64,000 nt of DNA from a virus. Below are positions 2,632-59,614 of the stretch, piece after piece; within the stretch, counting starts at the first letter, position 1, and every line of letters begins with the position of its first letter. The notes under the pieces are model-generated. The model made no database searches, was not told where the DNA came from, and worked only from the letters and a program-made list of their open reading frames with translations. Where the stretch lies: positions 51,656 to 115,655 of IMG/VR virus record IMGVR_UViG_3300027741_000030; one strand, 5' to 3'. A program made the translations under genes and the position numbers.

Positions 2632-3429
2632 ATGGCTAATAAGAAATTTGGTATTAAATCATCAGGACAGGATAACTTCCTAGCTCCATTTGCACCAACA
2701 ATAGGAACTGCGACAGATGTTGGTACTAACCGTCCATTTGGTAGCGGTGCAGTTACAGTAACATTTACACCTGATCCTACATACCCTGCAACATCTTTTA
2801 CAGCATCTGGTTACTGCAGTGTTCATAACATGACTCACTCAGCAACAGGATCATCTTCACCAATAACCATTACTGGTTTTGGTTCAGACATGACAACAAC
2901 AATTACTGTAACAGCTACAAATCAATATGGAACATCCCCTGCTTCAAATGCATCTAATACAGTAACAGTTACAACTGTTCCAGCAACTCCTTCGGCCCCA
3001 TCTGCAACAGCGCAGGTAAACCAAGACTCAGTATCTTGGTCAACACCTGCAAATGGAGGAAAAGCAATAACAGGTTATACATTAAGGTCAAGCGATGGCC
3101 CAACATATTCAACAGGATCAACTTCTTATACTGTTTCTGAAACTGCCAATACATCGCAAACATATTATGTAAAAGCTACAAATGCAAACGGAACTTCTCA
3201 AGAATCAGCCGCCTCAAATTCGGTTACAACTCTTGCACCGTTCTTTCCACCTTCATTCTTTGCACCACCAGGATTCTTTGCGCCACCTTCATTCTTCGCA
3301 CCTCCAGGGTTCTTTGCGCCACCTTCATTCTTCGCACCTCCAGGGTTCTTCGCACCTCCAGGGTTCTTCGCACCTCCAGGGTTCTTCGCACCTCCAGGGT
3401 TCTTCGCACCTCCAGGGTTCTGGGATTAA
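2632..3429 (+). CDS. Fibronectin-like surface protein ending in FFAPPG repeats
   Basis: This 265-residue protein has no signal peptide. Residues about 20-110 and 115-200 read as two Ig/fibronectin-III-like beta domains (for example the segments ITVTATNQYGTSPASNAS and ITGYTLRSSDG...TYYVKATNANG). Residues 209-262 are nine tandem FFAPP[G/S] hexapeptides, followed by a terminal FWD. A good ribosome site (ATAGGGG) lies before the ATG. Its place between a tail fibre and the dioxygenase genes suggests a virion decoration or fibre-tip protein. The aromatic/proline tail could be a polymerisation or docking element, or a substrate for prolyl hydroxylation by the neighbouring enzymes; both are inference. 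No enzyme motif is seen. Confidence 0.6.
   Translation: MANKKFGIKSSGQDNFLAPFAPTIGTATDVGTNRPFGSGAVTVTFTPDPTYPATSFTASGYCSVHNMTHSATGSSSPITITGFGSDMTTTITVTATNQYGTSPASNASNTVTVTTVPATPSAPSATAQVNQDSVSWSTPANGGKAITGYTLRSSDGPTYSTGSTSYTVSETANTSQTYYVKATNANGTSQESAASNSVTTLAPFFPPSFFAPPGFFAPPSFFAPPGFFAPPSFFAPPGFFAPPGFFAPPGFFAPPGFFAPPGFWD
3256..3417 (+). repeat. Nine 18-base tandem repeats encoding FFAPP[G/S]
   Basis: An 18-base unit is repeated nine times in frame. The last five copies are nearly identical (TTCTTCGCACCTCCAGGG) and the first four are more diverged (GCA/GCG and CCA/CCT swaps, Ser for Gly in units 2 and 4). The gradient from diverged to identical suggests recent expansion at the 3' end by slippage or unequal recombination. 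Confidence 0.9.
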
Positions 3430-3497: not shown

Positions 3498-4172
3498 ATG
3501 ACACAAACATGGTCAAATAAAGAAATTTTATTTCCAGGATTATGGGTATATAAAGACGTAATTAAACCAGAATTAAATTTGGTTCCTAGACTGCTTAACC
3601 TAATTGACAGCAGTGCTGGAAGAATTAATTGGAAAGAAGCAACTGTTGGCTATAATGAAAATAGGCCAAAGTATAGGGATTGCCAAGATATAAAAATTGG
3701 TGAAATTAAAAATCCTAACAATCCATATGATTATGAATTTAATGAAATATGGAAATTAGCAAAACATGCACAGTCTGGTCCAGTCGAAGATTACTGCACA
3801 GCTCACAGCGTAAGAATGGATTTTTGGGAAGTAATGAATTTTATTTCTTATGGTCCAGGGCAACATTTTCAAGAACATGCAGATCACGGATTTTCTTACA
3901 GTGCAACCGTTTCCCTTGTTGCATATCCAAACGATGACTATGAGGGTGGAGAACTAGCTTTTCCAAAACTAGGAATTACTGTTAAACCACGAGCAGGAGA
4001 TCTATACATATTCCCTTCAAGCTATATTTATTCTCACGTGGCTCTTCCAGTTAAAAGCGGAAAAAAATATTCTATTGTAACTATGCTTGATTATAATGAC
4101 AATACGCATAACGATGAATACCGTGCATTAGTTGATAGAAGACTAGGCAATGATAAAAATAAGGGCATATAG
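3498..4172 (+). CDS. 2OG-Fe(II) dioxygenase, prolyl 4-hydroxylase-like
   Basis: This 224-residue protein has the jelly-roll signature of the prolyl-4-hydroxylase branch: H127-A-D129 for iron, the strand motif NDDYEGGELAFP (about 145-156), KPRAGDLYIFPS (163-174), the distal histidine H180, and K190 as the likely 2-oxoglutarate contact. Such enzymes couple 2OG decarboxylation to hydroxylation of a substrate, often a prolyl residue; the substrate here is unknown. It is the first gene after a strong promoter, and its 3' end overlaps the next gene by 23 bases. It directly follows the FFAPPG-repeat protein, which offers many Ala-Pro-Pro sites. Confidence 0.85.
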   Translation: MTQTWSNKEILFPGLWVYKDVIKPELNLVPRLLNLIDSSAGRINWKEATVGYNENRPKYRDCQDIKIGEIKNPNNPYDYEFNEIWKLAKHAQSGPVEDYCTAHSVRMDFWEVMNFISYGPGQHFQEHADHGFSYSATVSLVAYPNDDYEGGELAFPKLGITVKPRAGDLYIFPSSYIYSHVALPVKSGKKYSIVTMLDYNDNTHNDEYRALVDRRLGNDKNKGI

Positions 4173-4860
4173 AAAACAAAAAGATTCTGCAAACATATCA
4201 CAGCTTTCAGTTAAGAGAGACTGGATGGATGAAACATGGGAATCTCATGCATACAAATGTTTTCCAGTAAGCCTCACCAATCAGTTGGGATGGGGAATAT
4301 CATTTCCAGAGGATATAACTTTTATATGGGATGGGATTTCAGACTCTTCTTCAGATCATGTAAAAATATTATCAGGATTAAAATATGCACATTCAGGAAG
4401 AGGAAATGCCACAGTAAGCTTTAATACAGGCATTAGCTTTAAAACTGATGAAAATATAAGCCTACTAACAATGCCAGTTCCTAATTATTTAAGGGACGGC
4501 ATTCAGCCATTTACAACATTAATGAGCACTTCATTTTTTAATGGCGAATTGCCATGTGCTTTAAGAGTAACAAGACCAAATGTTGAAATAACAATTAAAG
4601 CAAATACTCCAATATTTTCAATTCTTCCAATTAACCTTGAAGAAATTCAAGATTCTGAAATAATATTTGAAGATGCAAGCCTTCTTCCAGAATTAAGTTT
4701 TGATCCAAAAGCTTATGGAGAAGAGGTATATAAAATAAATATGTCTGGAAAGTGGACAAATTTTTATAGAGATGCCGTTGATCATTTAGGAAACATTTTA
4801 GGAAAACATCAAATAAAATCAGTTAGGCTAAAGGTCCATGAGGACAAAAGCAACATATGA
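4150..4860 (+). CDS. Unknown protein, paralogue of the gene at 48870 (DUF6065-like)
   Basis: This 236-residue protein is clearly related to the one at 48870. Both have an N-terminal KRDWM motif, then PVSLTNQLGWGI / PVTLVNTLGYGI, FPEDITFIWDG / FEEDIAFSWDG, H-SGRG-x-(A/G)TVSFNT, F(K/R)TD-x-x(I/V)S-LT(M/L)PVPN and ST(S)xFxGxxP. It recalls the uncharacterised DUF6065 family as I remember it, but this was not checked. It has no membrane segment or signal peptide. It overlaps the preceding dioxygenase gene by 23 bases, implying coupled translation. The second copy also lies near a dioxygenase gene (47770), so a partnership is possible. The biochemical role is unknown. Confidence 0.6.
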   Translation: MIKIRAYRKQKDSANISQLSVKRDWMDETWESHAYKCFPVSLTNQLGWGISFPEDITFIWDGISDSSSDHVKILSGLKYAHSGRGNATVSFNTGISFKTDENISLLTMPVPNYLRDGIQPFTTLMSTSFFNGELPCALRVTRPNVEITIKANTPIFSILPINLEEIQDSEIIFEDASLLPELSFDPKAYGEEVYKINMSGKWTNFYRDAVDHLGNILGKHQIKSVRLKVHEDKSNI

Positions 4861-4887
4861 TAAAATTATATAAAAGGGGTATTAAAA

Positions 4888-5583
4888 ATGATGAGACAAA
4901 ATAATGAAATAATAGCAAACAGAGATATTGGTTTGCATGCTCCAAAATCAATAACCCCTTCAGGATTCTTTGGCAATTCATCTGACAATATAGTAGAGCT
5001 AGAAAACTTTTTAACAGAAGATGAAAGAGCAAGACTAATTGATTTTGCAATGAATAATAAAGTTTGGGATCAAACAGAAAGCCATGTTGATGAAGATGGC
5101 CTTGTCCTTTATGATGCTAACATATGGAAAGATAGAGTTTGCACATATCATTCTTTAATGAAATCAGATCCAAGTATACTAGAATTAATTAATTCCATGA
5201 TTGCAAGATTAAAAATTGAAGTAGATAAATTTTTTAATGTTGATGCAAAAGAAACTGGACCAGCAATTGTAAGGTGGCCAATAGGTGCAAGACAAGAACC
5301 ACATGCAGATAAAGAATTTCACACTGGAATAGAAAAGGGAAGACCAAATGATTTCCCCTGGTATGATCTAGCAGGCTTATTTTATTTTAATGATGATTAT
5401 GAGGGTGGAGAATTATATTTCCCACAACATGGAATTGAGTTTAAACCAAAAGCAGGAGCAGCTTATTTTTTCCCAGGAGACATGAACTATACTCATGGAG
5501 TTAGACCAGTAACCTCTGGAAATAGATTTACCTCCCCATTTTTTTGGACCATAATGAAACATTTGGATCAAGTTGAAAAATAA
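4888..5583 (+). CDS. 2OG-Fe(II) dioxygenase, prolyl 4-hydroxylase-like
   Basis: This 231-residue protein carries the full catalytic set: H139-A-D141, the FYFNDDYEGGELYFP strand (about 165-179), KPKAGAAYFFPG (186-197), H203 in YTHGV and R213 as the 2OG-binding basic residue. The first 40 residues end in a possible helix before the core (NIVELENFLTEDE). The ribosome site AAAAGGGG lies upstream of ATGATG. An extended -10-like element (TGATAAAAT, 4858-4866) precedes it and could give a secondary transcript start. The last codons overlap the next gene, whose TTG start is at 5573. Confidence 0.85.
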   Translation: MMRQNNEIIANRDIGLHAPKSITPSGFFGNSSDNIVELENFLTEDERARLIDFAMNNKVWDQTESHVDEDGLVLYDANIWKDRVCTYHSLMKSDPSILELINSMIARLKIEVDKFFNVDAKETGPAIVRWPIGARQEPHADKEFHTGIEKGRPNDFPWYDLAGLFYFNDDYEGGELYFPQHGIEFKPKAGAAYFFPGDMNYTHGVRPVTSGNRFTSPFFWTIMKHLDQVEK

Positions 5584-6208
5584 TAATTGTTTAATTGATG
5601 ACAATTTTTTGCTTGATGAAGAGATAGATTATTTACAGCAAATAATGTACTCTTATGAAAACACCTTTAATTGGATATATACTCCCACAGGAAACATGGA
5701 CGCTGGAGATTATCGAGCAGTTCACACTAAAAATACAAACAATTCAATGCAATTTATTCACACAGCAAAATTAGGAAAAATAGAATATTCAAATTTTTCA
5801 AAAGATGCTGAAAAAGTTTTATATAAGTTTTGTAAAAAAAACAATATAGAGGTTATAGATGTTTTTAGAATTAAAGCTAATTTAATTCCAAAACAAAATG
5901 ATTATTTGCAAACAAATATGCCACACGTAGATAATGTTATTGATATTATTCCTGAACATACAGAGGGAGAGCATTATGTTTTTTTGTATTATGTAAACGA
6001 TTCAGACGGCCCAACAGTAATCTTTAATGAAAAATATAATGGAGAAAAAAAAGATATCTTTTCTATAAAACAAAAAATTAACCCAGTAGCTGGAAGAGGC
6101 ATATTGTTTAATGCAGACCAATACCACGCCTCATCTATACCTAAAAAAACAAACTTAAGATGTGTAATAAACATTAATTTAATAGGAAAAAAAATAAATG
6201 ATAATTAA
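5573..6208 (+). CDS. 2OG-Fe(II) dioxygenase-like protein (divergent)
   Basis: This 211-residue protein starts at a TTG that overlaps the end of the previous gene. It keeps an iron-site pattern, H118-V-D120 (MPHVDN), a distal H185 (QYHASS) and R196 (TNLRCV), on a double-stranded beta-helix-like background (EGEHYVFLYYVNDSDGPTVIF). It lacks the YEGGE strand of its neighbours and looks more like the rapid-induction P4H relatives found in marine phages. Oxygenase activity is therefore likely but less certain than for the flanking genes. Its product ends 11 bases inside the following gene. Confidence 0.65.
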   Translation: MKNNNCLIDDNFLLDEEIDYLQQIMYSYENTFNWIYTPTGNMDAGDYRAVHTKNTNNSMQFIHTAKLGKIEYSNFSKDAEKVLYKFCKKNNIEVIDVFRIKANLIPKQNDYLQTNMPHVDNVIDIIPEHTEGEHYVFLYYVNDSDGPTVIFNEKYNGEKKDIFSIKQKINPVAGRGILFNADQYHASSIPKKTNLRCVININLIGKKINDN

Positions 6209-6638
6209 AAATTTAACCAAAAAAGAAATAGAGGCTTCCAGAGTCCTATTAGATCTGACCCTAGGCATAGAGCATTCAGGTAAATCTTTTTTTAGTCATT
6301 TATACAACACATTTTATATATTAAAAAAAATGAATTTAGACGAGGATACATGCCTGGCAGGAATGTATCATTCGATATATGGAACAGAGTATTTTAAGAT
6401 AGACAAACAGGTGCAAAAAGATGAAGTTATTAAAACAATTGGACAAAAAGCAAATAAATTGGTAGAATATTTTTGTACAGAAAACAGAAATGATTTTATT
6501 TTAAACGGTAAAATAGAAGATCAAGATAGGCTTTCTTTATTGTATATTTTATATGCAAACGAAATAGAGCAAAGAGGCGAAAAAAACATTTTGTTTTTAA
6601 ATCAAATAAAAGAAGAAATAGGAAAGAAATTGCTATGA
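6198..6638 (+). CDS. HD-like helical protein (DUF6817-like)
   Basis: This 146-residue, mostly helical protein has H26, H34 and H58 in the pattern HSGKSFFSHL...DTCLAGMYHSIYGTEYF. That pattern recalls an HD-phosphohydrolase-related family (DUF6817, from memory). No classic HD dyad is visible, so metal binding is possible but unproven. It overlaps both neighbours (11 bases upstream, 4 bases downstream ATGA) and so is translationally tied to two dioxygenase genes. A role in the same modification pathway is inferred from position only. Confidence 0.5.
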   Translation: MIIKNLTKKEIEASRVLLDLTLGIEHSGKSFFSHLYNTFYILKKMNLDEDTCLAGMYHSIYGTEYFKIDKQVQKDEVIKTIGQKANKLVEYFCTENRNDFILNGKIEDQDRLSLLYILYANEIEQRGEKNILFLNQIKEEIGKKLL

Positions 6639-7462
6639 CAAACTTAGAGTATATTGAGCTATATCCAAGAATAGATGTTTATAGAAATGTTTTAAAAGAT
6701 CCACAGGCTTTATATCAAACTATGAAAAAATCTGAGGAAACTTCAAATGGAGAATACCTTTTAAAAACTTGGGATGCATGGGCAAAATTTGGAACCTACA
6801 CTCAAAAGAAAGACTTGGCTGAAGTTTCAGAAGATACAAAAACTAAAAATATGTTTATTGAAGAAAAAGATTTTGTAGATCAGGTTCAAGCAGCTTATGA
6901 TTTAGTTTTGTTGGATTACATAAAAAGACACAATGTTGAGTTAAAGCCAGGTTGGCATTTTAGCGGCTGCTCTTTTTCAAAATATAAAGATGGAGTAGAC
7001 ACTCTAAAAAATAAAATGACAATGCAGTATCACACTGATTTTATTATTGCAGAAAGAGAAATGCCTGGACCTAAGTTTCAATTAACATGTACAATGTACA
7101 TAAATGATGATTATCAAGGCGGAGACATAGAATTTTTTATTGATGGAAAGCTGATTAATCATAAGCCACAAGCAGGAGACATTCTTGTCTTCCCATCAGA
7201 CGAACCATATTTTCATGGAGTTAAAACAATATACAATGGCCAAAAGTTTTTTGTAAGAAATTTTGTAATGTACCCTTACGATGGAAGCCCTGAATGGCTA
7301 GCAAATCAAAAACAATTTGGTGCAGTAAATTGGATGAAAAAAGAATTTATTAGATTAGAAGAAGATACAAAAAGAAACATGAAATACGTTGAAGATGGTG
7401 TAGAAATTGCAGTAGAGATTGCACACGCAAACCATAATGTAGAGTCAAAGGAAAGTATGTAA
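6635..7462 (+). CDS. 2OG-Fe(II) dioxygenase (paralogue of 47770)
   Basis: This 275-residue protein has H133-T-D135, the strand MYINDDYQGGDIEF (about 154-167), KPQAGDILVFPSDEP (177-191), H194 in YFHGV and a basic residue K204/R208. It shares the architecture of the gene at 47770, including the start PRIDVYRNVLKDP / PQIVVYKNIFKNS and a long C-terminal helix after the barrel. This C-terminal extension (about residues 215-275, acidic and helical) is absent from the shorter paralogues and may be an oligomerisation or substrate-docking part. It starts by ATGA overlap with the previous gene. Confidence 0.82.
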   Translation: MTNLEYIELYPRIDVYRNVLKDPQALYQTMKKSEETSNGEYLLKTWDAWAKFGTYTQKKDLAEVSEDTKTKNMFIEEKDFVDQVQAAYDLVLLDYIKRHNVELKPGWHFSGCSFSKYKDGVDTLKNKMTMQYHTDFIIAEREMPGPKFQLTCTMYINDDYQGGDIEFFIDGKLINHKPQAGDILVFPSDEPYFHGVKTIYNGQKFFVRNFVMYPYDGSPEWLANQKQFGAVNWMKKEFIRLEEDTKRNMKYVEDGVEIAVEIAHANHNVESKESM

Positions 7463-8220
7463 TGGAACTAATAAAAATAGCAGAAGACATTCATCTATAT
7501 AAAAATTTTATAGAAGATGAAGAACTTGCTAAAGTAACATCTTTATTAAAAAAATTACAAAATACCGACAAAGACTATTGGAAGTCTATATCTTTTTATG
7601 AGTCATATTCCGCCAGATACCCTTATGATGGAGAACCAATTTTAGAAGAATTTGGTTTGCCTGCAACTTATTTTTCTGATCTAAGAAATAGGTTTAAAGA
7701 AGCAGCCGCACATGTTGCTAATCAGCCAGTTGAAAAAATGTCTCAAATAAGTTTTCATATTCAAAGATGGCTTCCAGGTTCTTTTGCACCAAAGCATTCT
7801 GACAACAGTGATAATGAAGGAAACATGGGAGCCTTTACAAGAAGCAGATACGCTGGATTTTTATACTTAAATGATGACTTTGAAGGAGGCACCTTAAAGT
7901 TTGAAGCACAACACGGAGAGCTGCCATTAGAAATAATTCCAGAAGCTGGATCTTTTTTAATATTCCACGGCGGTCACAAAAACATGCATGAGGTTACTGT
8001 AGTAAAAAAGAGCCCAAGATACACAATAGGTTCTTTTTGGGACGATAGAGAAGAATCAGATTATCCACAAGACGTAAGAGATGCTTGGGCTGAAGAGCTT
8101 AAAAAAGTTAGAGCAATTCAAGCTGAAGAAGCGGTAGAGTGGAAAGAAGTTAGAGAAAAGGGATTACGTCTAACACCAGATGGCAAGTCTATACCAGCAT
8201 CTGAAGTGGAAGATTTATGA
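7462..8220 (+). CDS. 2OG-Fe(II) dioxygenase, prolyl 4-hydroxylase-like
   Basis: This 252-residue protein carries H112-S-D114 (APKHSDNSD), the strand FLYLNDDFEGGTLKF (133-147), PEAGSFLIFHGG (160-171), H176 (NMHEV) and R186 (PRYTIG), a complete 2OG/Fe(II) set. The C-terminal 45 residues are charged and probably helical. The start overlaps the previous stop by one base and the stop overlaps the next start by four, so it sits in a translationally coupled chain. The substrate is unknown. Confidence 0.85.
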   Translation: MELIKIAEDIHLYKNFIEDEELAKVTSLLKKLQNTDKDYWKSISFYESYSARYPYDGEPILEEFGLPATYFSDLRNRFKEAAAHVANQPVEKMSQISFHIQRWLPGSFAPKHSDNSDNEGNMGAFTRSRYAGFLYLNDDFEGGTLKFEAQHGELPLEIIPEAGSFLIFHGGHKNMHEVTVVKKSPRYTIGSFWDDREESDYPQDVRDAWAEELKKVRAIQAEEAVEWKEVREKGLRLTPDGKSIPASEVEDL

Positions 8221-8882
8221 TAGACGAAAAATCAAATAAATTTGATCCAAATGACATGTATCACATGTTTATACCAAATGTTTTAGAGAACAATATTTGG
8301 TATTATAAAAATGTTGTAAGCTATCCAAAAGAGCTATTAGATTTTATTAATGAAGTTGATAATGATGCTAGAAGCCACGGTAAAATAACAAAGTGGTTCC
8401 CTTGGACTGCTAGCAATAATGGCTCTTTAATATACGGAGATAACAAAAATGTTCTACCTTCAAATATGAAAGATGTCACAGACGCTGGAAGACTAGATCA
8501 AAAAATACTATATATATCAAATAGCATAAAGATGGCTTTTCAAATGTGTCTTGATAATTACTTTGCTTCAAGAAATATTGATTCGTCAAATTATGTTTTG
8601 CCAATGAGTGAGATTCCATTAAGAAGGTGGGGAGTGGGTCCTGGAATGGGTCCTCATTGTGATAACTATGACGGGCATACAAATCTTGCTTTTTCTATGA
8701 TTCTATATTTAAACAACAACTACGAAGGCGGGGAAATCGAGTTTCCAAATCAGGGAGTGTCTTTAAAGCCAGATGAGGGCAGCCTAATTATATTCCCAAG
8801 CAGTGAGCCATACCTTCACAAAGTAAATGAGATTAAATCGGGAGATAGGTACACATCACATCTTTCAGTATATACAAGATAG
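8217..8882 (+). CDS. 2OG-Fe(II) dioxygenase, prolyl 4-hydroxylase-like
   Basis: This 221-residue protein has H147-C-D149 (MGPHCDNYDG), the strand MILYLNNNYEGGEIEFP (161-177), KPDEGSLIIFPSSEP (184-198), H201 (YLHKV) and R211 (DRYTSH). The two residues around the distal histidine and the FPSSEP motif are shared with the gene at 6635. It is the last gene of the six-enzyme cluster. Directly after it comes a promoter for the collagen-like fibre gene, whose Gly-X-Y repeats are a conceivable substrate. Confidence 0.85.
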   Translation: MIDEKSNKFDPNDMYHMFIPNVLENNIWYYKNVVSYPKELLDFINEVDNDARSHGKITKWFPWTASNNGSLIYGDNKNVLPSNMKDVTDAGRLDQKILYISNSIKMAFQMCLDNYFASRNIDSSNYVLPMSEIPLRRWGVGPGMGPHCDNYDGHTNLAFSMILYLNNNYEGGEIEFPNQGVSLKPDEGSLIIFPSSEPYLHKVNEIKSGDRYTSHLSVYTR

Positions 8883-47584: not shown

Positions 47585-47762
47585 TGAGTTTTTGAATAAA
47601 GAAACAAAGGTAGCAAACGATTCTACATTTGAAAACCTTCCAGGAACAAGACCTTGCTCCAAATGTGAGATTGATGTAGATGGTGGGCTGTGGGATCCTA
47701 AGAATTTAATAATGAAATGGACGTGTCCGTCTGGACACGAGACTGTACACAGGTTTGGATAA
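47571..47762 (+). CDS. Small zinc-ribbon protein
   Basis: This is a 63-residue protein from the ATG at 47571 with the site GGAG six bases before it; the upstream TTG at 47559 is unlikely. It has a C-x2-C (PCSKCEID) and a second Cys with nearby His (WTCPSGHETVH), the usual zinc-ribbon layout. It overlaps recA's end by 14 bases. The role is unknown. Confidence 0.5.
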   Translation: MPNLNEFLNKETKVANDSTFENLPGTRPCSKCEIDVDGGLWDPKNLIMKWTCPSGHETVHRFG

Positions 47763-47769
47763 TATTAAA

Positions 47770-48570
47770 ATGGATAAGCTTGTTGTTGCCCCTCAAATTG
47801 TTGTTTATAAAAACATTTTTAAAAACTCCAAGGAACTTATAGAAAATCTTGATATAGATAGAGAAGACTCTCTGTTTGATGGGTGGAGACAGTGGTATCA
47901 GCAAGGTTTTAGAAAAGATGTGGTCTTTGATTTAAATGAAAATTACCCAGAGACACAGGAGTCTTTATACTTAAAAGAAGCTTGTGAAATTGTAAACTTT
48001 ATTAGACAAGATTATTTTAATGATTTTGAAAAAGATAAAGGTGTTTGGCCTACGTTTATTAATAATTGGGATTCTTTAAAAAAAACACAAGACATATTTT
48101 ATTTAGACTACTTCAGATATGTAAAAGAACAAAATCATTATTCTGATGAAAAACTATTAATGGAATACCATGTAGATGAATTTCCAGTAGTGAACGAAGC
48201 TAAGACAAGAAGACATGTTGTAACTATTAACTTTTATTTAAATAACGAATACACTGGGGGAGAGATATCTGCATATGACGCTATCTCAAATAAGATCTAT
48301 ACATATAAGCCACAACCAGGTGATGCGGTTGTAATGCCATCAACCGAGCCTTTCTATCATGGAGTAAAGGGATTTAAAGATGCAGACAGGTATTTTTTAA
48401 GATCATTTATAGATTATAGAATGGACTCTGAAGAAGAATGGGTTGCTAAATATAAGTTAAATCAATCTGATAGACACAAAGAAGTTCAGCAACACGAAGA
48501 CGATTATGTTTCAAAAGACTTGCAGATGATAACAGTGTCTTCAGCAGAAGAAGTTATAGTTGGTAATTAA
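47770..48570 (+). CDS. 2OG-Fe(II) dioxygenase (paralogue of 6635)
   Basis: This is a 266-residue protein from ATG 47770 (an in-frame TTG at 47755 is possible). It has MEYHVDEFP (iron H and D), the strand NFYLNNEYTGGEIS, KPQPGDAVVMPSTEP, FYHGVKG (distal H) and a basic R in DRYFLRSF. It shares length and the C-terminal helical extension with the enzyme at 6635. Here it is inside the recombination block, followed by a nuclease-like gene and then a paralogue of the 4150 gene. So the dioxygenase/DUF6065-like combination occurs twice in the genome. Confidence 0.8.
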   Translation: MDKLVVAPQIVVYKNIFKNSKELIENLDIDREDSLFDGWRQWYQQGFRKDVVFDLNENYPETQESLYLKEACEIVNFIRQDYFNDFEKDKGVWPTFINNWDSLKKTQDIFYLDYFRYVKEQNHYSDEKLLMEYHVDEFPVVNEAKTRRHVVTINFYLNNEYTGGEISAYDAISNKIYTYKPQPGDAVVMPSTEPFYHGVKGFKDADRYFLRSFIDYRMDSEEEWVAKYKLNQSDRHKEVQQHEDDYVSKDLQMITVSSAEEVIVGN

Positions 48571-51604: not shown

Positions 51605-51744
51605 AGCTGTATCAGAGTAAAGACTGGCTATATAGAAGATATGTAGTTCAAAAGAAAAATGTGACAGAGATTGCTAAAGAGTGTAATGTGTCTGCTATGA
51701 CTATACAGAGATATTTAGAAAAATTTAATTTGATGAGGAAATAA
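51601..51744 (+). CDS. 47-residue helix-turn-helix peptide
   Basis: The ATG at 51601 overlaps the RuvC stop, and its own stop at 51742-51744 overlaps the next start. After a basic N-terminus (KLYQSKDWLYRRYVVQKK) there is a clear helix-turn-helix (VTEIAKECNVSAMTIQRYLE) and a short tail. The shape is that of a resolvase/Hin-type HTH or a small sigma-like or repressor peptide. It may be a minimal DNA-binding factor acting on a phage site. Confidence 0.65.
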   Translation: MKLYQSKDWLYRRYVVQKKNVTEIAKECNVSAMTIQRYLEKFNLMRK

Positions 51745-52547
51745 TGTTAGATCGTAATTTATTAATAAATCATCCAGAACCAGAAAAAATAGAATGGCTA
51801 AGGATTAGTAAAGAAGATTATATTGAAATTGAAAAAGTTGCAACCGATAATGTTGTTTTTTTTGATCCGTTTGTTATTGATAATTTTTTTAATGAGAATG
51901 ATTTTGAAGAGCTAAAAGAATATTTATTTAATAAAGACAAATCAGAATTTGAATATCAAGAGAATATGAAGAAGTTAGAAAAAGTTGTTGATCTGCCAGA
52001 AAAATTTGTTGATATGGCAACTAAAAAACTAAAGAGTATTTTAAATACAGAAGATTTAATAATGACTCATTCAAGATTTGCACATCATCAAATATCTAAA
52101 GATAAAGAAAAGCCAAATGTTTATTTCCATATAGATAGATCTCCAGGAACTTACATGGTAAACATACATATAGATGGCAATAAAGAATGGGGATTTGTTG
52201 TAAACGATAAAGAGTTCGTTACAAAACCATCACAATCAGTTTTGTGCCAGCCAGAATTTGATTTCCACTACAGGCCTGAGTGGATAGGCGATGATGAAAA
52301 TGAATATCATCAAGCTTTGTTTTTATTTTTTGTAAATAAAAATCATTGGTCAATAAGTAAAGATAATTTAGAACAAACCAGATCTGATTATTTAAATAAT
52401 AAATATAATTTTGGAAAAGATTTTAAAAATTCAAAAGAGTTAAGAGGCTTTGCAGATCAAAAATTTGAAATGTTTTTTAAATATTATAAAGAATTAAATA
52501 AAGATTTATTAAAAAAAACTAACCCAGGATTTGGAAAAAAACAATGA
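51744..52547 (+). CDS. 2OG-Fe(II) dioxygenase-like protein (divergent)
   Basis: In this 267-residue protein, H129-I-D131 (YFHIDRSPG) and a distal H175 with R177 (FDFHYRPEW) give the iron and 2OG positions of a double-stranded beta-helix enzyme. The fold resembles asparaginyl/aspartyl-hydroxylase-like members (TYMVNIHIDGNKEWGFVVND). The N-terminal 90 residues are helical and acidic and the C-terminal 60 residues are helical, Lys/Asn-rich. It is not closely similar to the P4H-like genes at 3498-8882. It starts overlapping the HTH peptide and ends overlapping a MazG-like gene. Confidence 0.6.
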   Translation: MLDRNLLINHPEPEKIEWLRISKEDYIEIEKVATDNVVFFDPFVIDNFFNENDFEELKEYLFNKDKSEFEYQENMKKLEKVVDLPEKFVDMATKKLKSILNTEDLIMTHSRFAHHQISKDKEKPNVYFHIDRSPGTYMVNIHIDGNKEWGFVVNDKEFVTKPSQSVLCQPEFDFHYRPEWIGDDENEYHQALFLFFVNKNHWSISKDNLEQTRSDYLNNKYNFGKDFKNSKELRGFADQKFEMFFKYYKELNKDLLKKTNPGFGKKQ

Positions 52548-52903: not shown

Positions 52904-53452
52904 ATGACAGAATTAGAGCCAGCAGTTCATTTTGACCGTATGAATAAAGTTGTTCAGGAATTGCTTAAGGGCAATTCAGCAACCCAGATAGCCACACTAA
53001 CAGGTTTCTCAAGAAAAGAAGTTTTAGAATATGTAGATGAGTGGAAATCTGTTGTTCATAATGATCAAAACATGCGTGACAGAGCAAGAGAGGCTATCTC
53101 TGGTGCTGACGAACATTATGCAATGCTCATCAAAGAAGCCTGGAAAACTGTTGAAGATGCGGACACACAAGGCCAGCTCAACGTTAAAGCTGGAGCCCTT
53201 AAGCTTATAGCAGACATAGAGACAAAAAGAATTGCAATGCTTCAGTCAGTAGGAGTTTTAGAAAACTCACAGCTTGCATCTCAGATTGCAGAAACAGAAA
53301 GAAAGCAAGAGCTACTTGTTGGCATTCTAAAAGAAGTTACCGCTGGATGCCCTAAGTGCAAGATGGAAGTTGCAAAACGTTTGTCTCAAATAACTGGTAT
53401 AGTTGAGTCTATAAAAATTGAAGATGCAGAGGTTATAACTAATGTTCAATAA
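52904..53452 (+). CDS. Candidate small terminase subunit
   Basis: The protein has 182 residues. The N-terminal part contains a helix-turn-helix (KGNSATQIATLTGFSRKEVLEYVDEW), followed by helices (EHYAMLIKEAWKTVEDADTQGQLNVKAGALKLIADIETKRIAMLQ). These match the DNA-binding and oligomerising layout of small terminases. A Cys pair (CPKCKME) near the C-terminus is unusual and may bind zinc. It starts the packaging block behind a leaderless promoter, separated from the large subunit by one dioxygenase-like gene. Confidence 0.6.
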   Translation: MTELEPAVHFDRMNKVVQELLKGNSATQIATLTGFSRKEVLEYVDEWKSVVHNDQNMRDRAREAISGADEHYAMLIKEAWKTVEDADTQGQLNVKAGALKLIADIETKRIAMLQSVGVLENSQLASQIAETERKQELLVGILKEVTAGCPKCKMEVAKRLSQITGIVESIKIEDAEVITNVQ

Positions 53453-54068
53453 AGATGGCTTTAAAGAAATTGGTAAAAATATATATGTATATAACAACTT
53501 TTTGTCAGACGAAGAATGCAATTTAATACTTGAAGATATTTTAAAATTAAAAGAAGAGGATTGGTCGGTAATACCTGGAACTAAAACTAAAGATTATTTT
53601 GGATCTATTGATCATTTAAAATCAATAATAAATGTAAGAAAAAAAATAATTTCTTTGATGTCAGAAGATAGTTATTGCACAATAGGTGGTAGAGTTCAAA
53701 AATTGCTTAAAGGTGCATATAGAAATCCTCATGCAGACATATATCAGTATCAAAATGTAGTTGATAAATCAGATAAATATATTAATGGACAAGATTTTGA
53801 ATTAGCAGATTTAATAACACATGGAACAATACTTTATTTTAATGAATTTGATGGAGGAGAGCTATGCTATTCAAATCAAAACAATTTAACATATAAGCCC
53901 AAAAAAGGTGATTTCCTAGTGCATGGTGCAGAAGAAGAATGCAGGCATGGAGTAAAAGAAATTTTAAGTGATGTTCGTTATTTTGCTGTAGGACATTTTT
54001 TTAAACACGTCAAAGTCCCAGCTGGATCTAATTTTAAATATACTCCAGCAAACAAGGCTCTGGGATAA
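53442..54068 (+). CDS. 2OG-Fe(II) dioxygenase-like, between terminase genes
   Basis: In this 208-residue protein, H97-A-D99 (RNPHADIYQ), the strand TILYFNEFDGGELCYS, KPKKGDFLVHG, H169 (CRHGV) and R179 (VRYFAV) form a complete 2OG/iron set in the P4H-like style. It begins 11 bases inside the candidate small terminase gene and is three bases before the large terminase gene, so it is placed to be expressed with packaging functions. A substrate among DNA-packaging or capsid proteins is possible but unproven. Confidence 0.8.
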   Translation: MFNKDGFKEIGKNIYVYNNFLSDEECNLILEDILKLKEEDWSVIPGTKTKDYFGSIDHLKSIINVRKKIISLMSEDSYCTIGGRVQKLLKGAYRNPHADIYQYQNVVDKSDKYINGQDFELADLITHGTILYFNEFDGGELCYSNQNNLTYKPKKGDFLVHGAEEECRHGVKEILSDVRYFAVGHFFKHVKVPAGSNFKYTPANKALG

Positions 54069-54070
54069 AA

Positions 54071-55873
54071 ATGTCATTTGATTTTTCTGATTTAATTGAT
54101 ATTTTAGATGGTGAAGAGTTTGAAGAAAAGCCAGTAGACTTAAGAACATTTGTAAATGATCCAAACTATTTAGGCCTTCCTCCGCTATCTGATTATCAGT
54201 ATATATTGATAGAAAAAAGCTCTCAGATATATAAAGAGTCTACATTAAAAAAATTATTTGGAGAAGATGAGGGTGCAGTTAGGTTTAAACAAACTGCCAA
54301 TGAAGTAGTTGCTCAGCTAGGTAAAGGTTCAGGAAAAGATTACTGTTCTACAATTGCTGTGGCATACATAGTATATTTACTTCTCTGCTTAAAAGATCCA
54401 GCAACGTATTACGGTAAACCTGCTGGTGACTCTATTGATATTATTAATATTGCTATTAACTCACAGCAAGCAACCAACGTATTCTTTAAAGGGTTTAAAA
54501 GCCGAATAGACAAGTCGCCATGGTTTGTTGGTAAATATTATTCCAAGGCATCTGAAATTCAATTCAGTAAAGCTATAACAGTACACTCAGGTCACTCAGA
54601 AAGAGAAGCTTGGGAGGGATACAATGTTATTGTTGTAATCCTTGATGAAATTTCTGGATTTGCAATTGAAAATACTACTGGGCACGATCAAGCAAAAACT
54701 GGTAGTGCGGTATATGACATGTACAGGGCCTCAGTAGATTCACGTTTTCCAGACTTTGGAAAAGTAATCTTACTATCATTTCCCAGATTTAAAAATGACT
54801 ATATACAGCAAAGATATGATGCTGTTGTTGGAGAAAAAGAAACTGTAGTTAGAGAGCATAAATTTAAGATGTACGAGGAGCTACCAGATGGCACAGAAGG
54901 CAATGAGTTTGAGATACAATGGGAAGAAGATCATATTGTATCTTATAAAATACCTAAAGTATATGCTATTAAACGCCCAACTTGGGAGATTAACCCAGTT
55001 AGAAAAATTGACGATTTTAAAACAGCATTTTACACAAACCCAACCGACGCCCTTTCAAGATTTGCATGCATGCCCCCCGACGCAATTGATGCATTTTTTA
55101 AATCAAGAGAAAAAGTAGAAAAAGCTTTTAATGTTGGCGCAATTGCAGTAGATAATTTTGGAAGACTTGAAGAATGGTTCTTGCCAGACCCAGATAAAAA
55201 ATATTACATACATGTAGACTTGGCTCAAAAACATGATCATTGTGCTGTAACTATGGCACATATAAACAAATGGGTAAACGTCAAAGTCACAGACACCTAC
55301 TCTCAGCCAGCTCCAATAGTAGAAGTAGATGCTGTAAGATACTGGACACCAACTAAAGATAAGTCGGTAGATTTTACAGAAGTAAAAGACTATATTCTTT
55401 CTCTTAAGACAAGAGGATTTAATATAGCAATATGTACCTTTGACAGATGGAACTCTCATGATATGATGCAACAACTAAAACAATACGGCATCAATACAGA
55501 GATTCTGTCTGTCGCTAAAAAACATTATGATGATATGGCAATGGTTGTTGCTGAAGAAAGATTAATTGGGCCACATATACCTTTGCTTATAGACGAATTG
55601 TGCCAGCTTAGAATCATGAGAGACAAGGTGGATCACCCTAGAAAGGGTTCAAAAGATTTAGCGGATGCTACTTGTGGAGCTATATTCAATTCAATTAGTA
55701 GAACAAGATTTGATAACAATCAAGAAATTAATGTGCATACTTATGAATCAATGAGTTATGATAATGATTTTGGGTCCAAAGATGACCCAGATACAACATC
55801 TTATAATATGATCAGGGCACCAAGAATGCCCCAAGATTTAAGAGAAGCAATGGACAGGATGCAAATAATATGA
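54071..55873 (+). CDS. Terminase large subunit
   Basis: The protein has 600 residues. The ATPase part has a Walker A-like GKGSGKD (84-90), Walker B VVILDE (about 188-193, D192-E193) and the coupling motif region. The nuclease part has YYIHVDLAQKHDHCAVTM (first Asp), ICTFDRWNSHDMMQQL and KDLADATCGAIFNSI (final Asp), giving the RNase-H-like metal site of TerL. It packages concatemeric DNA into the prohead through the portal. It lies about 41 kb downstream of the portal gene, an unusual separation. The three-base gap to the previous gene implies co-translation. Confidence 0.88.
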   Translation: MSFDFSDLIDILDGEEFEEKPVDLRTFVNDPNYLGLPPLSDYQYILIEKSSQIYKESTLKKLFGEDEGAVRFKQTANEVVAQLGKGSGKDYCSTIAVAYIVYLLLCLKDPATYYGKPAGDSIDIINIAINSQQATNVFFKGFKSRIDKSPWFVGKYYSKASEIQFSKAITVHSGHSEREAWEGYNVIVVILDEISGFAIENTTGHDQAKTGSAVYDMYRASVDSRFPDFGKVILLSFPRFKNDYIQQRYDAVVGEKETVVREHKFKMYEELPDGTEGNEFEIQWEEDHIVSYKIPKVYAIKRPTWEINPVRKIDDFKTAFYTNPTDALSRFACMPPDAIDAFFKSREKVEKAFNVGAIAVDNFGRLEEWFLPDPDKKYYIHVDLAQKHDHCAVTMAHINKWVNVKVTDTYSQPAPIVEVDAVRYWTPTKDKSVDFTEVKDYILSLKTRGFNIAICTFDRWNSHDMMQQLKQYGINTEILSVAKKHYDDMAMVVAEERLIGPHIPLLIDELCQLRIMRDKVDHPRKGSKDLADATCGAIFNSISRTRFDNNQEINVHTYESMSYDNDFGSKDDPDTTSYNMIRAPRMPQDLREAMDRMQII

Positions 55874-56100: not shown

Positions 56101-56999
56101 ATTTAGATATATGGAAAGAGTCATCTTATCCACTAAAGAATGACATATCTGATTGGCAAAATGTTTGTAACGAGTATGGCTTTAACTCTAAAGAATTTTC
56201 TAGCTCAGCAGATTTTTTAGCTTTAGGGTGTTCTATGACATTTGGGATAGGTGTTGAAGAAAATAAAAATTGGGCAGACATAATTTCTAAAAATGCTAAT
56301 TTAAATGGACACAACCTATCAGGATGTGGGAAATCAATAATGTGGAGCATAAATAAATTTTTTTCATACGTAAACAAATTTGGTAATCCAAAATTTGTAT
56401 TTTGTTTTTTCCCAGAGTTTTATAGGATTGAAATTGCTTCAAGAGCTGATCACATGATTCCAAAATACAATCATTTCCCAAAAAATAATTTAAACGAAAA
56501 AGATATTATAAGGTACGGAGTCTGGAATAAAAATAATAATAAAAATGAATTTAAAATAAATGAATCTTTAATTGCAGAAAACGTAATCCCAAAAGAAACT
56601 TCTTTTGATATATCAATTCAATATATAAAGATGTTAGAAATGTATTGTAATTCTAACAACATAAAGTTATTTTGGACAACGTGGTCTCAAGAGGAGTCTG
56701 ATTGGCTAGATTTAAATGTACAAAATACTGAATTTAAAAATTATATATCAAGCGATATGAAAAATTGGCATTGCAGAAGTGTTGATAATATGAAAGAAAT
56801 TTTTTGTCAAAACATATCTCAATGCTCTTCAAATGACGAATGTAGTTTTGCAGATAGCTGCCATCAAGAATATTCAAATGAAAAAAATTTTTATTATCCA
56901 AGGGATGCATATACCTCACCAGCCGTACATTTTGGCTTTCATAGACAAATTCATATTGCAGAAATGTTTTTAAAATCTATTGACGTTCCTGTAGTTTAA
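56097..56999 (+). CDS. SGNH/GDSL-like hydrolase
   Basis: In this 300-residue protein, block I reads LALGCSMTFGIGVEENKNWADII, the GDSL-like motif with Ser after GC. Block III-like GNPKFVFCFFPEF and a C-terminal H-x2-G-x-H-like end (HFGFHRQIHIAEMF) complete the pattern. The motif GCSxTFG is a common variant of the GDSL nucleophile in phage-associated esterases/acyltransferases. A second, differently built SGNH protein lies at 58377. Possible substrates are O-acetyl groups on glycans; this is inference. Confidence 0.6.
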   Translation: MNLDIWKESSYPLKNDISDWQNVCNEYGFNSKEFSSSADFLALGCSMTFGIGVEENKNWADIISKNANLNGHNLSGCGKSIMWSINKFFSYVNKFGNPKFVFCFFPEFYRIEIASRADHMIPKYNHFPKNNLNEKDIIRYGVWNKNNNKNEFKINESLIAENVIPKETSFDISIQYIKMLEMYCNSNNIKLFWTTWSQEESDWLDLNVQNTEFKNYISSDMKNWHCRSVDNMKEIFCQNISQCSSNDECSFADSCHQEYSNEKNFYYPRDAYTSPAVHFGFHRQIHIAEMFLKSIDVPVV

Positions 57000-57008
57000 A
57001 TGTATAAT
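56980..57008 (+). promoter_or_regulatory. Promoter for tRNA/AhpC-AhpD operon
   Basis: TTGACG (56980-56985), a 17-base spacer and consensus TATAAT (57003-57008) lie over the end of the SGNH gene. Transcription would start about 57015, a few bases before tRNA-Met, and run through tRNA-Arg towards the peroxidase genes. Confidence 0.7.
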
Positions 57009-57018
57009 TTACTAACTG

Positions 57019-57092
57019 GCGCCAGTAGCTTAGTTGGTTAAAGCCCCGAACTCATAATTCGGTAATCGTAGGTTCGAGTCCTACCTGCCGCA
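57019..57092 (+). tRNA. tRNA with CAT anticodon (Met or lysidine-type Ile)
   Basis: The cloverleaf folds by eye: acceptor GCGCCAG with CTGCCGC (57085-57091), D-stem GCTT/AAGC, anticodon stem CCGAA/TTCGG with loop CTCATAA, T-stem GTAGG/CCTAC with loop TTCGAGT, and discriminator A. The acceptor stem has one C-C mismatch at the fourth pair. CCA is not encoded. The absence of three G-C pairs in the anticodon stem argues against an initiator tRNA. CAT could also be read as Ile2. Confidence 0.85.
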
Positions 57093-57093
57093 C

Positions 57094-57165
57094 ACCTCTG
57101 TAGCTCAGCGGAAGAGCAACAGACTTCTAATCTGTTGGTCGCTGGTTCAATTCCAGCCAGGGGTA
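57094..57165 (+). tRNA. tRNA-Arg (TCT)
   Basis: Acceptor ACCTCTG/CAGGGGT, D-stem GCTC/GAGC, anticodon stem ACAGA/TCTGT with loop CTTCTAA (anticodon TCT), T-stem GCTGG/CCAGC, and discriminator A. It reads AGA, the preferred Arg codon of most genes in this window. It begins one base after the previous tRNA, so the two are processed from one transcript. CCA is not encoded. Confidence 0.9.
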
Positions 57166-57200
57166 CGATACACCGTATCACTTATATATAAGGAGAAAAA

Positions 57201-57737
57201 ATGAAAACCGTAGGAGATAAACTCGGTAATTTTGCCGTTACTGGAGTTAAACCTGGAGCTTTGTCTTATGAAGACAGCTCTTTTGAAACAATTACGCAAG
57301 ATTCTTTTCCAGGCAAATGGAAAATTATTGCGTTTTACCCAAAGGATTTTACCTTTGTTTGCCCAACAGAAATAGTTGCGTATGATGCATTAGTTAATGA
57401 TTTTAATGACAGAGATGCAATTCTTATGACGGGTTCTGTTGATAATGAATTTTGTAAAATTGCATGGAGAAATGCACATGAAGATCTTAAGAAGACAAAC
57501 TCATGGTCATTTGCAGATACAGCACATCAACTTGCAAACGATTTAGGAGTTCATCATCCATCAGGTGTTGCTTATCGTGCAACATTTATTATAGATCCAG
57601 ATAACATTATTCAGCATGTTACATGCAATAACCTTGATGTAGGACGTAATGCTGATGAAGCCTTACGTGTATTGGATGCACTTCAAACAGGAGAGCTATG
57701 TCCATGCAATAGGCCATTAGGAGGAGAAACTCTATGA
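57201..57737 (+). CDS. ahpC: AhpC-type peroxiredoxin
   Basis: The protein has 178 residues. The peroxidatic Cys is C54 in FTFVCPTE. The C-terminus reads ELCPCNRP, with C167 and C169. This Cys-Pro-Cys tail, with three cysteines in all, is the form I know from the mycobacterial AhpC, whose partner is AhpD. The enzyme reduces hydroperoxides and peroxynitrite, and the fold is otherwise full length. The gene has a clear ribosome site (AAGGAG), follows two tRNA genes from a promoter at 56980, and overlaps the AhpD-like gene by four bases. Phages rarely carry this pair; all catalytic positions are kept, so activity is likely. Confidence 0.88.
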   Translation: MKTVGDKLGNFAVTGVKPGALSYEDSSFETITQDSFPGKWKIIAFYPKDFTFVCPTEIVAYDALVNDFNDRDAILMTGSVDNEFCKIAWRNAHEDLKKTNSWSFADTAHQLANDLGVHHPSGVAYRATFIIDPDNIIQHVTCNNLDVGRNADEALRVLDALQTGELCPCNRPLGGETL

Positions 57738-58249
57738 CAAATTGGGTTACTCAACTTCAAGAATCTATTCCAGAATTTGCAAAAGACATTAAGCTTAATT
57801 TAGATGCAGTAATAAATAGATCAGAAATTGATCCAGAATATGCATTACATATTGCAATAGCATCAGCATTTGCTACTGGAAATTCAAAGCTACTAGCTTT
57901 TTTGGTTGCTAATTCAAATGATGAATTGGAAAAAAATGCAGCACTTGGAGCAGGTGCTGTCATGGCTCAAAACAACGTTTGGTATCCATATTCAAGAAAA
58001 TCACATAACGAAGAATTTAGACAAGTTAATGGTCAGCTTAGAATGAATATAATTGGAACCCATGGCGGAACTACAAAAGCTAAATTTGAATCATATGCAT
58101 TAGCAGCATCAATAATTGGTAAATGTGATTATTGTGTTTCTGGGCATTTTGATCTTCTTAAAAATGAAGGTTACACCAATGAACAGTTGCGTGATATTGG
58201 AAGAATTGCAGCAACAATTAATGCATTAGCAAAAATACTTAACGCATAA
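57734..58249 (+). CDS. ahpD: AhpD-type alkylhydroperoxidase/reductase
   Basis: In this 171-residue all-helical protein, the redox motif is K-C131-D-Y-C134-V-S-G-H138, with E119 upstream. This reproduces the Glu...Cys-x-x-Cys...His relay of AhpD (in the mycobacterial enzyme about E118, C130, C133, H137). AhpD recycles oxidised AhpC with electrons from a lipoyl protein such as dihydrolipoamide succinyltransferase. It starts by ATGA overlap with ahpC, so equal expression is expected. An electron donor is not encoded nearby, so the phage would use the host's. Confidence 0.87.
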   Translation: MTNWVTQLQESIPEFAKDIKLNLDAVINRSEIDPEYALHIAIASAFATGNSKLLAFLVANSNDELEKNAALGAGAVMAQNNVWYPYSRKSHNEEFRQVNGQLRMNIIGTHGGTTKAKFESYALAASIIGKCDYCVSGHFDLLKNEGYTNEQLRDIGRIAATINALAKILNA

Positions 58250-58283
58250 AAAAACTCCTTGGCAAGAGAATAAACTGCCATAC

Positions 58284-58356
58284 GTTCCTATAGCTCAGCT
58301 GGTAGAGCAGCAGACTTTTAATCTGCGGGTCGATGGTTCGATACCATCTGGGGACA
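58284..58356 (+). tRNA. tRNA-Lys (TTT)
   Basis: Acceptor GTTCCTA/TGGGGAC (with G-T wobbles), D-stem GCTC/GAGC, anticodon stem GCAGA/TCTGC with loop CTTTTAA (anticodon TTT), T-stem GATGG/CCATC with loop TTCGATA, and discriminator A. It reads AAA, the main Lys codon here. It lies after ahpD and is probably transcribed with it. Confidence 0.9.
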
Positions 58357-58360
58357 CATA

Positions 58361-58369
58361 TGATAGAAT
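58361..58369 (+). promoter_or_regulatory. Extended -10 promoter, likely leaderless
   Basis: TGATAGAAT (58361-58369) ends seven bases before the ATG at 58377 and directly follows tRNA-Lys. No clear -35 is visible and no ribosome site precedes the ATG. Confidence 0.4.
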
Positions 58370-58376
58370 ATAAGTT

Positions 58377-59132
58377 ATGACTAGAAAAATATTAATAATT
58401 GGAGATTCTCATTCGGCTAAACTTTCATTTGGCCTTAATAATTTTTTACAAAAAAATGAATCAAATGACACTAGGCAAGAATCTGATCATCAATACAGAA
58501 CAAAGTATATAGATAAACTTGGAAATAGTGTGTGGATGGAAGACTCTCTTGTAACTTATAAAAATGAATCTTTAAATTTTTATATATCTTGTCACCCAGG
58601 AAGATCTGCTTTACATTTTGATTTTGAAAATTTTGCAAGCGGAACTCAAAAAGAAATTTTAAGCGATTGGAATGAAGAGGGCAAAATAATAATGCCGTGG
58701 TTTGGGTATATAGATATAAGAAATTGGTTGCCGCAAACAGATTTAAAAAATTATGTTAATGTTTCAGGTGTTATCTCTAGATATATTGATAATGCTTTGG
58801 CTAAATTTAACAAAGCTAGGATTATATTTATTGAACCTATGCCTCAATTTATATGTATAGTTACAAGCAAATTTAGATTTTTTCATACAGATCCAGCTAT
58901 AGAGTTTGAAGATAGGCATGAGTTTCATTTAATGTTTGTAGAAGAGTTAAAAAAGCAGTGTTTAGAAAGAGGCCTTGATACCCCAGTAAACATAAGAGAA
59001 ATTTTGGGTACAGACATGATAGAGCCATGGATGCAGCCTAAAAAACCAATTAATTACCTATTAAATGATCATTTATTGCCAGAACATTACACAAAAATTT
59101 TAAAATATATATATGAAAATGTTGGAGTATAG
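58377..59132 (+). CDS. SGNH-hydrolase-like protein
   Basis: In this 251-residue protein, block I IIGDSHSA (nucleophile Ser in GDSH), block II/III PWFGYIDIRNW and a terminal NDHLLPEHYTKIL (Asp and His of block V) form the SGNH catalytic triad. The GDSH form is typical of sialate/acetyl-esterase-like relatives and of glycan O-acetyl modifiers. No signal peptide is present, so it acts in the cytoplasm or on nucleotide-sugar-derived glycans. It sits between the antioxidant genes and is preceded by a likely leaderless promoter. Confidence 0.65.
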   Translation: MTRKILIIGDSHSAKLSFGLNNFLQKNESNDTRQESDHQYRTKYIDKLGNSVWMEDSLVTYKNESLNFYISCHPGRSALHFDFENFASGTQKEILSDWNEEGKIIMPWFGYIDIRNWLPQTDLKNYVNVSGVISRYIDNALAKFNKARIIFIEPMPQFICIVTSKFRFFHTDPAIEFEDRHEFHLMFVEELKKQCLERGLDTPVNIREILGTDMIEPWMQPKKPINYLLNDHLLPEHYTKILKYIYENVGV

Positions 59133-59158
59133 ACCATAAATCACAAAAATGGTATACT
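59130..59158 (+). promoter_or_regulatory. Extended -10 promoter for dps, leaderless spacing
   Basis: TAGACC (59130-59135), a 17-base spacer and TGGTATACT (59150-59158) precede the ATG at 59165 by six bases. No ribosome site is seen before dps, so the message should be leaderless. Confidence 0.6.
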
Positions 59159-59164
59159 GAGATT

Positions 59165-59614
59165 ATGGATACAATAATTAGTTTATTAAAAAAATGGCAA
59201 GCAAATTCAGTTGTGCTTTATTCAACAGCACACGGGTTTCATTGGAACGTAGAGGGACCACTATTTACTCAGTATCACGCATTTTTTGAAAAAATATATA
59301 CAGATATATATGAAACTGTAGATACAATTTCAGAATTTTTAAGAAAATATGATGTACAAGCGCCTTATACTCTTCAAGAATTTATTCAAAATAATACCTA
59401 CGGAGATGTACAGATGGATAGCAATTCTCCAATTGCTATGTCAAAACAACTTTTATCTATGATTGAATACATGATTCAAGATGTTAAGATTTTGTTTGAC
59501 GAAGCAACCTTACAAAAAGAACAAGGATTGGCTAATTTTTTAGCAGATAGACAAGATCAACTTCAGTTCCACGCTTGGTGGTTGAGATCTTCGCTAAAAC
59601 AAACAGTAAACTAA
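59165..59614 (+). CDS. dps: Dps-like ferritin (DNA-protection protein)
   Basis: In this 149-residue four-helix protein, the Dps signature is present: FHWNVEGPLFTQYHAFFEKIYTD, then ETVDTISEFLRKY, containing the His, Asp and Glu ligands of the inter-subunit ferroxidase site. The protein is at the short end of the family. Dps cages oxidise Fe(II) with hydrogen peroxide and bind DNA, so this gene reinforces the peroxide-defence reading of the ahpC-ahpD pair. It has a leaderless-type promoter of its own and is directly coupled to the SDR gene (stop/start overlap). Confidence 0.85.
   Translation: MDTIISLLKKWQANSVVLYSTAHGFHWNVEGPLFTQYHAFFEKIYTDIYETVDTISEFLRKYDVQAPYTLQEFIQNNTYGDVQMDSNSPIAMSKQLLSMIEYMIQDVKILFDEATLQKEQGLANFLADRQDQLQFHAWWLRSSLKQTVN

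Follow-up and report, generated by a model that had tools for sequence, protein, structure and literature searches.

Phage-mediated defence against reactive oxygen species and viral katG are both already known. Freshwater actinophages with genes for thioredoxin, glutaredoxin, ferritin, superoxide dismutase and glutathione peroxidase were reported by Kavagutti et al. in 2019 (PMC6802176), a setting that the locus described here shares, and the main text of that paper names neither AhpC/AhpD nor catalase and describes no slot, exchange or exclusion. Viral katG genes, in part transcribed, have been found in freshwater by Zhou et al. in Lake Mendota (cited in PMC12713726) and in an estuary study (PMC13390420). 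In the available parts of these reports they appear as single auxiliary genes, and neither a tRNA slot nor an exchange with ahpCD is described. Among cellular genomes, one group of katG genes of Ca. Planktophila (Nanopelagicales) is reported to lie near tRNA genes and is interpreted as horizontally acquired (PMC7527133). Within the searchable literature, comprising few subscription papers and no supplementary tables, we found no phage AhpC-AhpD pair, no tRNA slot with exchangeable peroxidases, and no AhpD decay after the loss of AhpC.

At the level of the proteins, the closest structures are AhpC (PDB 2bmx, 4e-46) and AhpD (1gu9, 3e-24) of Mycobacterium tuberculosis. The phage and mycobacterial systems share the gene order, Cys54 with a C-terminal CxC in AhpC, and the E-x11-CxxC-x3-H signature and fold of AhpD. 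They differ in that the phage AhpC is shorter and of the CNR..GG type, on another branch, and that the phage AhpD has Tyr133 in place of His132; moreover, the genes are phage-borne between tRNAs, and the donor in the phage is putative.

The window, which is the entire 64,000-nucleotide stretch analysed, makes up the right-hand side of a virus record 115,655 bp long. The array and its neighbours are arranged in the following order:

56980–57008, plus strand: candidate sigma-70-type promoter, TTGACG-17-TATAAT (11/12, a consensus match only)
57019–57093, plus strand: tRNA-Met (cat), ARAGORN
57094–57166, plus strand: tRNA-Arg (tct), ARAGORN; left border of the slot
57201–57737, plus strand: ahpC, 178-aa 2-Cys peroxiredoxin (C54; C167, C169)
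57734–58249, plus strand: ahpD, 171-aa AhpD (E119, C131-x2-C134, H138), overlapping the ahpC stop
58284–58357, plus strand: tRNA-Lys (ttt), ARAGORN; right border of the slot
58377–59132, plus strand: 251-aa protein with a GDSH motif near its N-terminus; neighbour outside the slot
59165–59614, plus strand: Dps-like ferritin of 149 aa with ferroxidase ligands; occasional neighbour

The ahpC-ahpD pair and its neighbours

The start codon of ahpD lies in an ATGA across the ahpC stop codon. In AhpC, the peroxidatic Cys54 is located within a P47-x3-T51-x2-C54 motif (PxxxTxxC), and these three residues are invariant among relatives. The CPC tail (Cys167 and Cys169), a CxC as in the M. tuberculosis enzyme, is invariant across the viral alignment and common to cellular homologues too. 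AhpC matches Pfam AhpC-TSA (PF00578) at 83.3 bits, where the cut-off is 26, and at 119 bits it falls below the 272-bit equivalog cut-off of TIGR03137 (AhpF-dependent type), to which it is related while standing outside the equivalog. AhpD matches CMD (PF02627) with 43.2 bits against a cut-off of 23 and exceeds the cut-off of TIGR00778 for the AhpD core domain (33.5 vs 27.8). It scores below that of the full-length TIGR00777 subfamily (111.9 vs 191.95 bits), with an alignment spanning nearly its whole length. The catalytic E-x11-CxxC-x3-H signature is present in 70/70 distinct paired viral AhpDs. An AlphaFold model of AhpD, computed from an alignment of viral sequences alone (pLDDT 87), agrees with 1gu9 and 1knc at a TM score of 0.87, the next families scoring far lower, and the protein is predicted to adopt the AhpD fold. 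His132 of M. tuberculosis AhpD, which belongs to a proton-relay network, corresponds to Tyr133 in the window, and most AhpDs of viruses and Burkholderiales have Phe there. We considered whether the loss of this histidine indicates damage and rejected this, since it characterises the Burkholderiales-type subfamily.

The dN/dS values against the window are 0.02–0.07 for ahpC and 0.07–0.11 for paired ahpD. Purifying selection on the pair, with intact active sites, is shown at the sequence level. The first-pass annotation had described a complete AhpC-AhpD pair, coupled through ATGA, and a Dps with its metal ligands. All three proteins are present at the coordinates listed, with the residues named and scores above the curated Pfam cut-offs, and the pair is complete and under purifying selection.

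In Dps, the ligands H26, H38, E42, D53 and E57 were assigned by eye to the canonical ferroxidase positions in an alignment to Dps structures. The protein matches Pfam Ferritin (PF00210; 62.7 bits, cut-off 24.5), and the closest PDB entry is 8ff9 (3e-14). Dps had been grouped with the pair as a triplet; however, among the best loci from IMG/VR, it lies near only 20 of 147 and is often far diverged, so that a conserved triplet is not borne out. Judged from these loci, the conserved unit is ahpC-ahpD alone, with Dps outside. In a related phage group, the Dps-like proteins (L057:4428-4895, L079:10281-10748 and L324:7978-8448) have VKGFYLNTES where AHGFHWNVEG is expected and lack the ferroxidase histidines; therefore, iron oxidation of the Dps kind is hardly to be expected of them. 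The 251-aa protein is possibly SGNH-like. It had no family match in Pfam, NCBIfam or PHROG, and its low-confidence structure model gave best fold matches with TM scores below 0.4.

Occupants of the tRNA array

Upstream of ahpC, 47/66 distinct relatives have a promoter-like site that matches at least 11/12 consensus positions, compared with 2/66 shuffles that preserved single-base composition only; the distance of this site varies among loci. A tRNA within 200 bp upstream is present in 57/69 distinct ahpCD loci and 44/56 distinct katG loci, as against 73/1453 other ORFs in the same loci (Fisher p <1e-40, which is optimistic because the sequences are related). The 39 ORFs following tRNAs in loci fetched with TerL include endolysin (13), Hsp20 (7), AhpC (4), Dps (3) and KatG (2). 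The idea that the slot is reserved for peroxidases is weakened by these other genes at tRNA-adjacent sites, which indicate a general cargo site. The gene directly after tRNA-Met in 64 distinct related loci of viruses encodes a conserved protein (about 119 aa; L130:7515-7871). GPx-like genes occur near ahpCD or right after a tRNA (L017:9025-9558, L123 downstream of ahpD, and L139:3823-4653) and are possibly a third kind of peroxidase cargo.

Related loci show the slot in other states. In L328 (TerL 94%), tRNA-Met, tRNA-Arg and tRNA-Lys are contiguous, which represents the empty site. In L324 (TerL 95%), a 687-aa KatG follows tRNA-Arg, and the homology to the window reaches the start codon. A near twin of the window, L436, has 91% DNA identity up to position 57204 and carries katG exactly in the place of ahpC. 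Its homology to the window resumes at 57727, with an orphan ahpD and then tRNA-Lys. This orphan AhpD carries C134S and, in addition, ten substitutions at columns that are invariant in the 70 distinct paired viral AhpDs, whereas the largest leave-one-out count of such substitutions among the paired proteins is three. It also has a long terminal branch (0.48), and its gene has a dN/dS of 0.23 against the window. Comparison of these loci shows that ahpD decays where katG has replaced ahpC, in the one replacement event observed.

The KatG of the slot matches PF00141 in two stretches, and its closest PDB entry is the catalase-peroxidase 5l05 (8.5e-276). The RxxWH and YVNPEGP motifs and the proximal His are found in most of 81 viral copies. 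In the KatG tree, 17 viral and 17 actinobacterial proteins separate with a branch value of 100. A recent katG exchange between phage and actinobacterial host, which we considered, is not supported in view of this split. The KatG of L436 groups among the viral KatGs, so that the swap drew on the viral pool. The tRNA-adjacent katG of Ca. Planktophila (PMC7527133) is cellular, whereas the viral KatGs form a clade separate from the actinobacterial KatGs sampled. The cellular katG genes that we checked had no consistent tRNA alongside. A short membrane-like ORF (MRSAMFYLLHSTAIVGLMIGSYFYGAKQ...) follows katG at L436:11088-11220 and L324:6207-6340.

None of 13 ahpCD records (79–119 kb, G000 among them) contained KatG, and the same query matched 15/15 katG records as a positive control. 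AhpC was absent from all 15 katG records, with its query matching 7/7 ahpCD records, and AhpD was absent from 14 large katG records. The sole co-occurrence of ahpD and katG is the decayed orphan of L436. Intact ahpCD and katG never occur together in the records tested, some of which may be incomplete.

Proposed function of the pair

The ahpC-ahpD pair is probably a cargo module of freshwater actinophages that removes peroxide from the infected cell, placed in a tRNA-array slot where katG can stand instead. In the proposed mechanism, host RNA polymerase would transcribe tRNA-Met, tRNA-Arg, ahpC, ahpD and tRNA-Lys from the near-consensus promoter. Cys54 of AhpC would reduce hydrogen peroxide or an organic peroxide, and the disulfide formed with the C-terminal CPC would be reduced by the CxxC of AhpD. 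AhpD would in turn be recharged by a lipoylated E2 protein and Lpd of the host, as is established for M. tuberculosis AhpD, and the phage-encoded thioredoxin may act as a second donor. KatG would remove the same peroxide with haem and without the AhpD/lipoyl chain. Therefore, either enzyme could fill the slot, and AhpD would be useless once AhpC is gone.

Peroxide defence is the likeliest role of the pair on the evidence of these genes and their arrangement. The best argument for it is the replacement by KatG, whose only function in common with AhpC-AhpD is the removal of peroxide. The first-pass annotation had proposed that the phage protects the infected cell against peroxide; the function is inferred, and the KatG replacement at the same site strengthens this proposal. 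The exchange of peroxidases at the tRNA array is directly seen in the loci compared. We suggest more tentatively that the array may serve as an exchange site where thiol-based ahpCD and haem-based katG, drawn from a common viral pool, replace each other gene for gene, perhaps depending on the haem and reductant supply of the host. That the host decides which peroxidase occupies the slot is a conjecture.

The source of the peroxide can be seen differently. One proposal (PMC6802176) is that the ROS genes of freshwater phages serve infected cells inside protist food vacuoles, and the presence of the enzymes says nothing about where peroxide comes from. However, it is unlikely that the pair mainly counters the oxidative burst there rather than peroxide from water, metabolism or infection, because nothing found here links the slot to grazing, and peroxide in sunlit water, together with the catalase that Ca. 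Planktophila needs in culture (PMC7527133), offers a simpler source. We give quite low probability to a signalling or chaperone role of AhpC-AhpD, or to a redox tuning of phage enzymes such as class II ribonucleotide reductase, in place of scavenging. Peroxiredoxins do have side roles of the signalling and chaperone type, and the phage has both a ribonucleotide reductase and a thioredoxin, but the active sites of AhpC and AhpD are invariant, and the occupation of the same site by KatG is at odds with a role other than peroxide removal.

With peroxide removal from the infected cell as the preferred function, the protection of hosts from oxidants by freshwater phages is made specific: one site, two unrelated enzymes, one shared function, an empty state and a decaying leftover. 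Together, these features argue more strongly for selection on removing peroxide than the presence of the genes would by itself. A slot that holds ahpCD, katG or nothing suggests that peroxide removal in the infected cell matters to these lake viruses, and the phage would be expected to benefit from the pair. Ca. Planktophila is one possible host lineage. Its cultivated members need added catalase, which makes a benefit from a phage peroxidase plausible, and the KatG assayed from this lineage is no functional catalase (PMC7527133). If the hosts are the abundant streamlined actinobacteria of lakes, phage peroxidases could matter for the survival of hosts and the yield of phage across whole lakes.

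Ancestry, distribution and carrier phage

The viral AhpCs form one clade (branch value 97) inside the CNR..GG type, and a branch with a value of 99 separates them from the CNW type of Mycobacterium, Streptomyces and Corynebacterium. The viral AhpDs likewise form a single clade, with a value of 100, which falls on the Burkholderiales side of the tree. In an even draw of 397 Actinomycetota genomes, a close AhpD or AhpC was found in the seed genome only. The position of the viral clades near the Burkholderiales type and this survey argue against a recent capture from the usual actinobacterial stock, which the sequences do not support. The first-pass annotation had regarded the genes as the actinobacterial peroxidase pair; this origin was not borne out, since among the cellular matches listed both trees place the viral proteins with or near the Burkholderiales type and away from Mycobacterium and Streptomyces. 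A freshwater donor outside these cellular matches is conceivable.

The nearest AhpD group with known organisms is that of the Burkholderiales ahpC-ahpD loci (L155, L160 and L171). They share with the phage pair the GKCHFC motif of most viral AhpDs, the ELCPCNR tail and the gene order, with identities of about 63–65% for AhpC and 42–49% for AhpD. The cellular genes are usually 60–200 bp apart, whereas the phage ahpC and ahpD overlap.

No AhpD was recognisable in 50,697 annotated phage records, and these contained only distant AhpCs. IMG/VR, however, holds at least 580 relatives of AhpC and at least 580 of AhpD, so that the rarity of the pair in phages, which had been supposed, does not stand. 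Among the best IMG/VR loci, 145 have both ahpC and ahpD, and in every one of them the two genes are neighbours on the same strand; the loci were retrieved via the genes themselves, and related sequences inflate such counts. The pair recurs on a dozen independent viral contigs of 79–119 kb, and records of 105–119 kb from many samples contain one ahpC each. Its distribution is patchy. Of 32 TerL relatives whose sequence extends 4.5 kb or more downstream, 5 have the pair near terL, indicating that it is not essential.

TerL, at position 54071 of the window, is approximately 62–64% identical to those of Streptomyces phages of about 130 kb. A WhiB gene is located at G000:C1:1993-2166 (PF02467, 45.2 bits), and among 14 control genomes the WhiB profile gave matches in Corynebacterium only. 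WhiB is regarded as an actinophage mark (PMC6802176, PMC10202952). From these markers the record is assigned to an actinophage, and its host is taken to be an actinobacterium. The phage also encodes an endolysin, a thioredoxin, a GPx-like protein and a class II ribonucleotide reductase. The WhiB, TerL and endolysin genes and the many independent viral contigs confirm that the pair is phage-borne. It is extremely improbable that the segment consists of host DNA wrongly assembled or binned with phage sequence, a possibility raised by the first-pass annotation, or that it is a recent functionless transducing capture. Peroxiredoxin genes are typical of hosts, and several of the AhpC matches among annotated phage records come from very short or unannotated entries, possibly of host origin. 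Against this reading stand the finding of the pair in the same phage context on numerous independent viral contigs (at least 10 above 100 kb), the single clade formed by each viral protein, dN/dS values far below 1 and the natural empty site.

Reading by eye, we observed many 2-oxoglutarate/Fe(II) oxygenase-like (prolyl-hydroxylase-like) proteins on the phage genome, many of them in tandem (window 3498-8882, 47755-48570, 51744-52547 and 53442-54068; G000:C1:12225-17467). A tryptophan-halogenase-like FAD protein (G000:C1:34078-35574) and a run of sulfotransferase-like proteins (G000:C1:31247-33081) were also recognised by eye. A 265-aa protein near the tail genes (window 2632-3429) ends in C-terminal FFAPPSFFAPPGFFAPP repeats, and the protein at G000:C1:44769-47843 has the same kind of terminal repeat.
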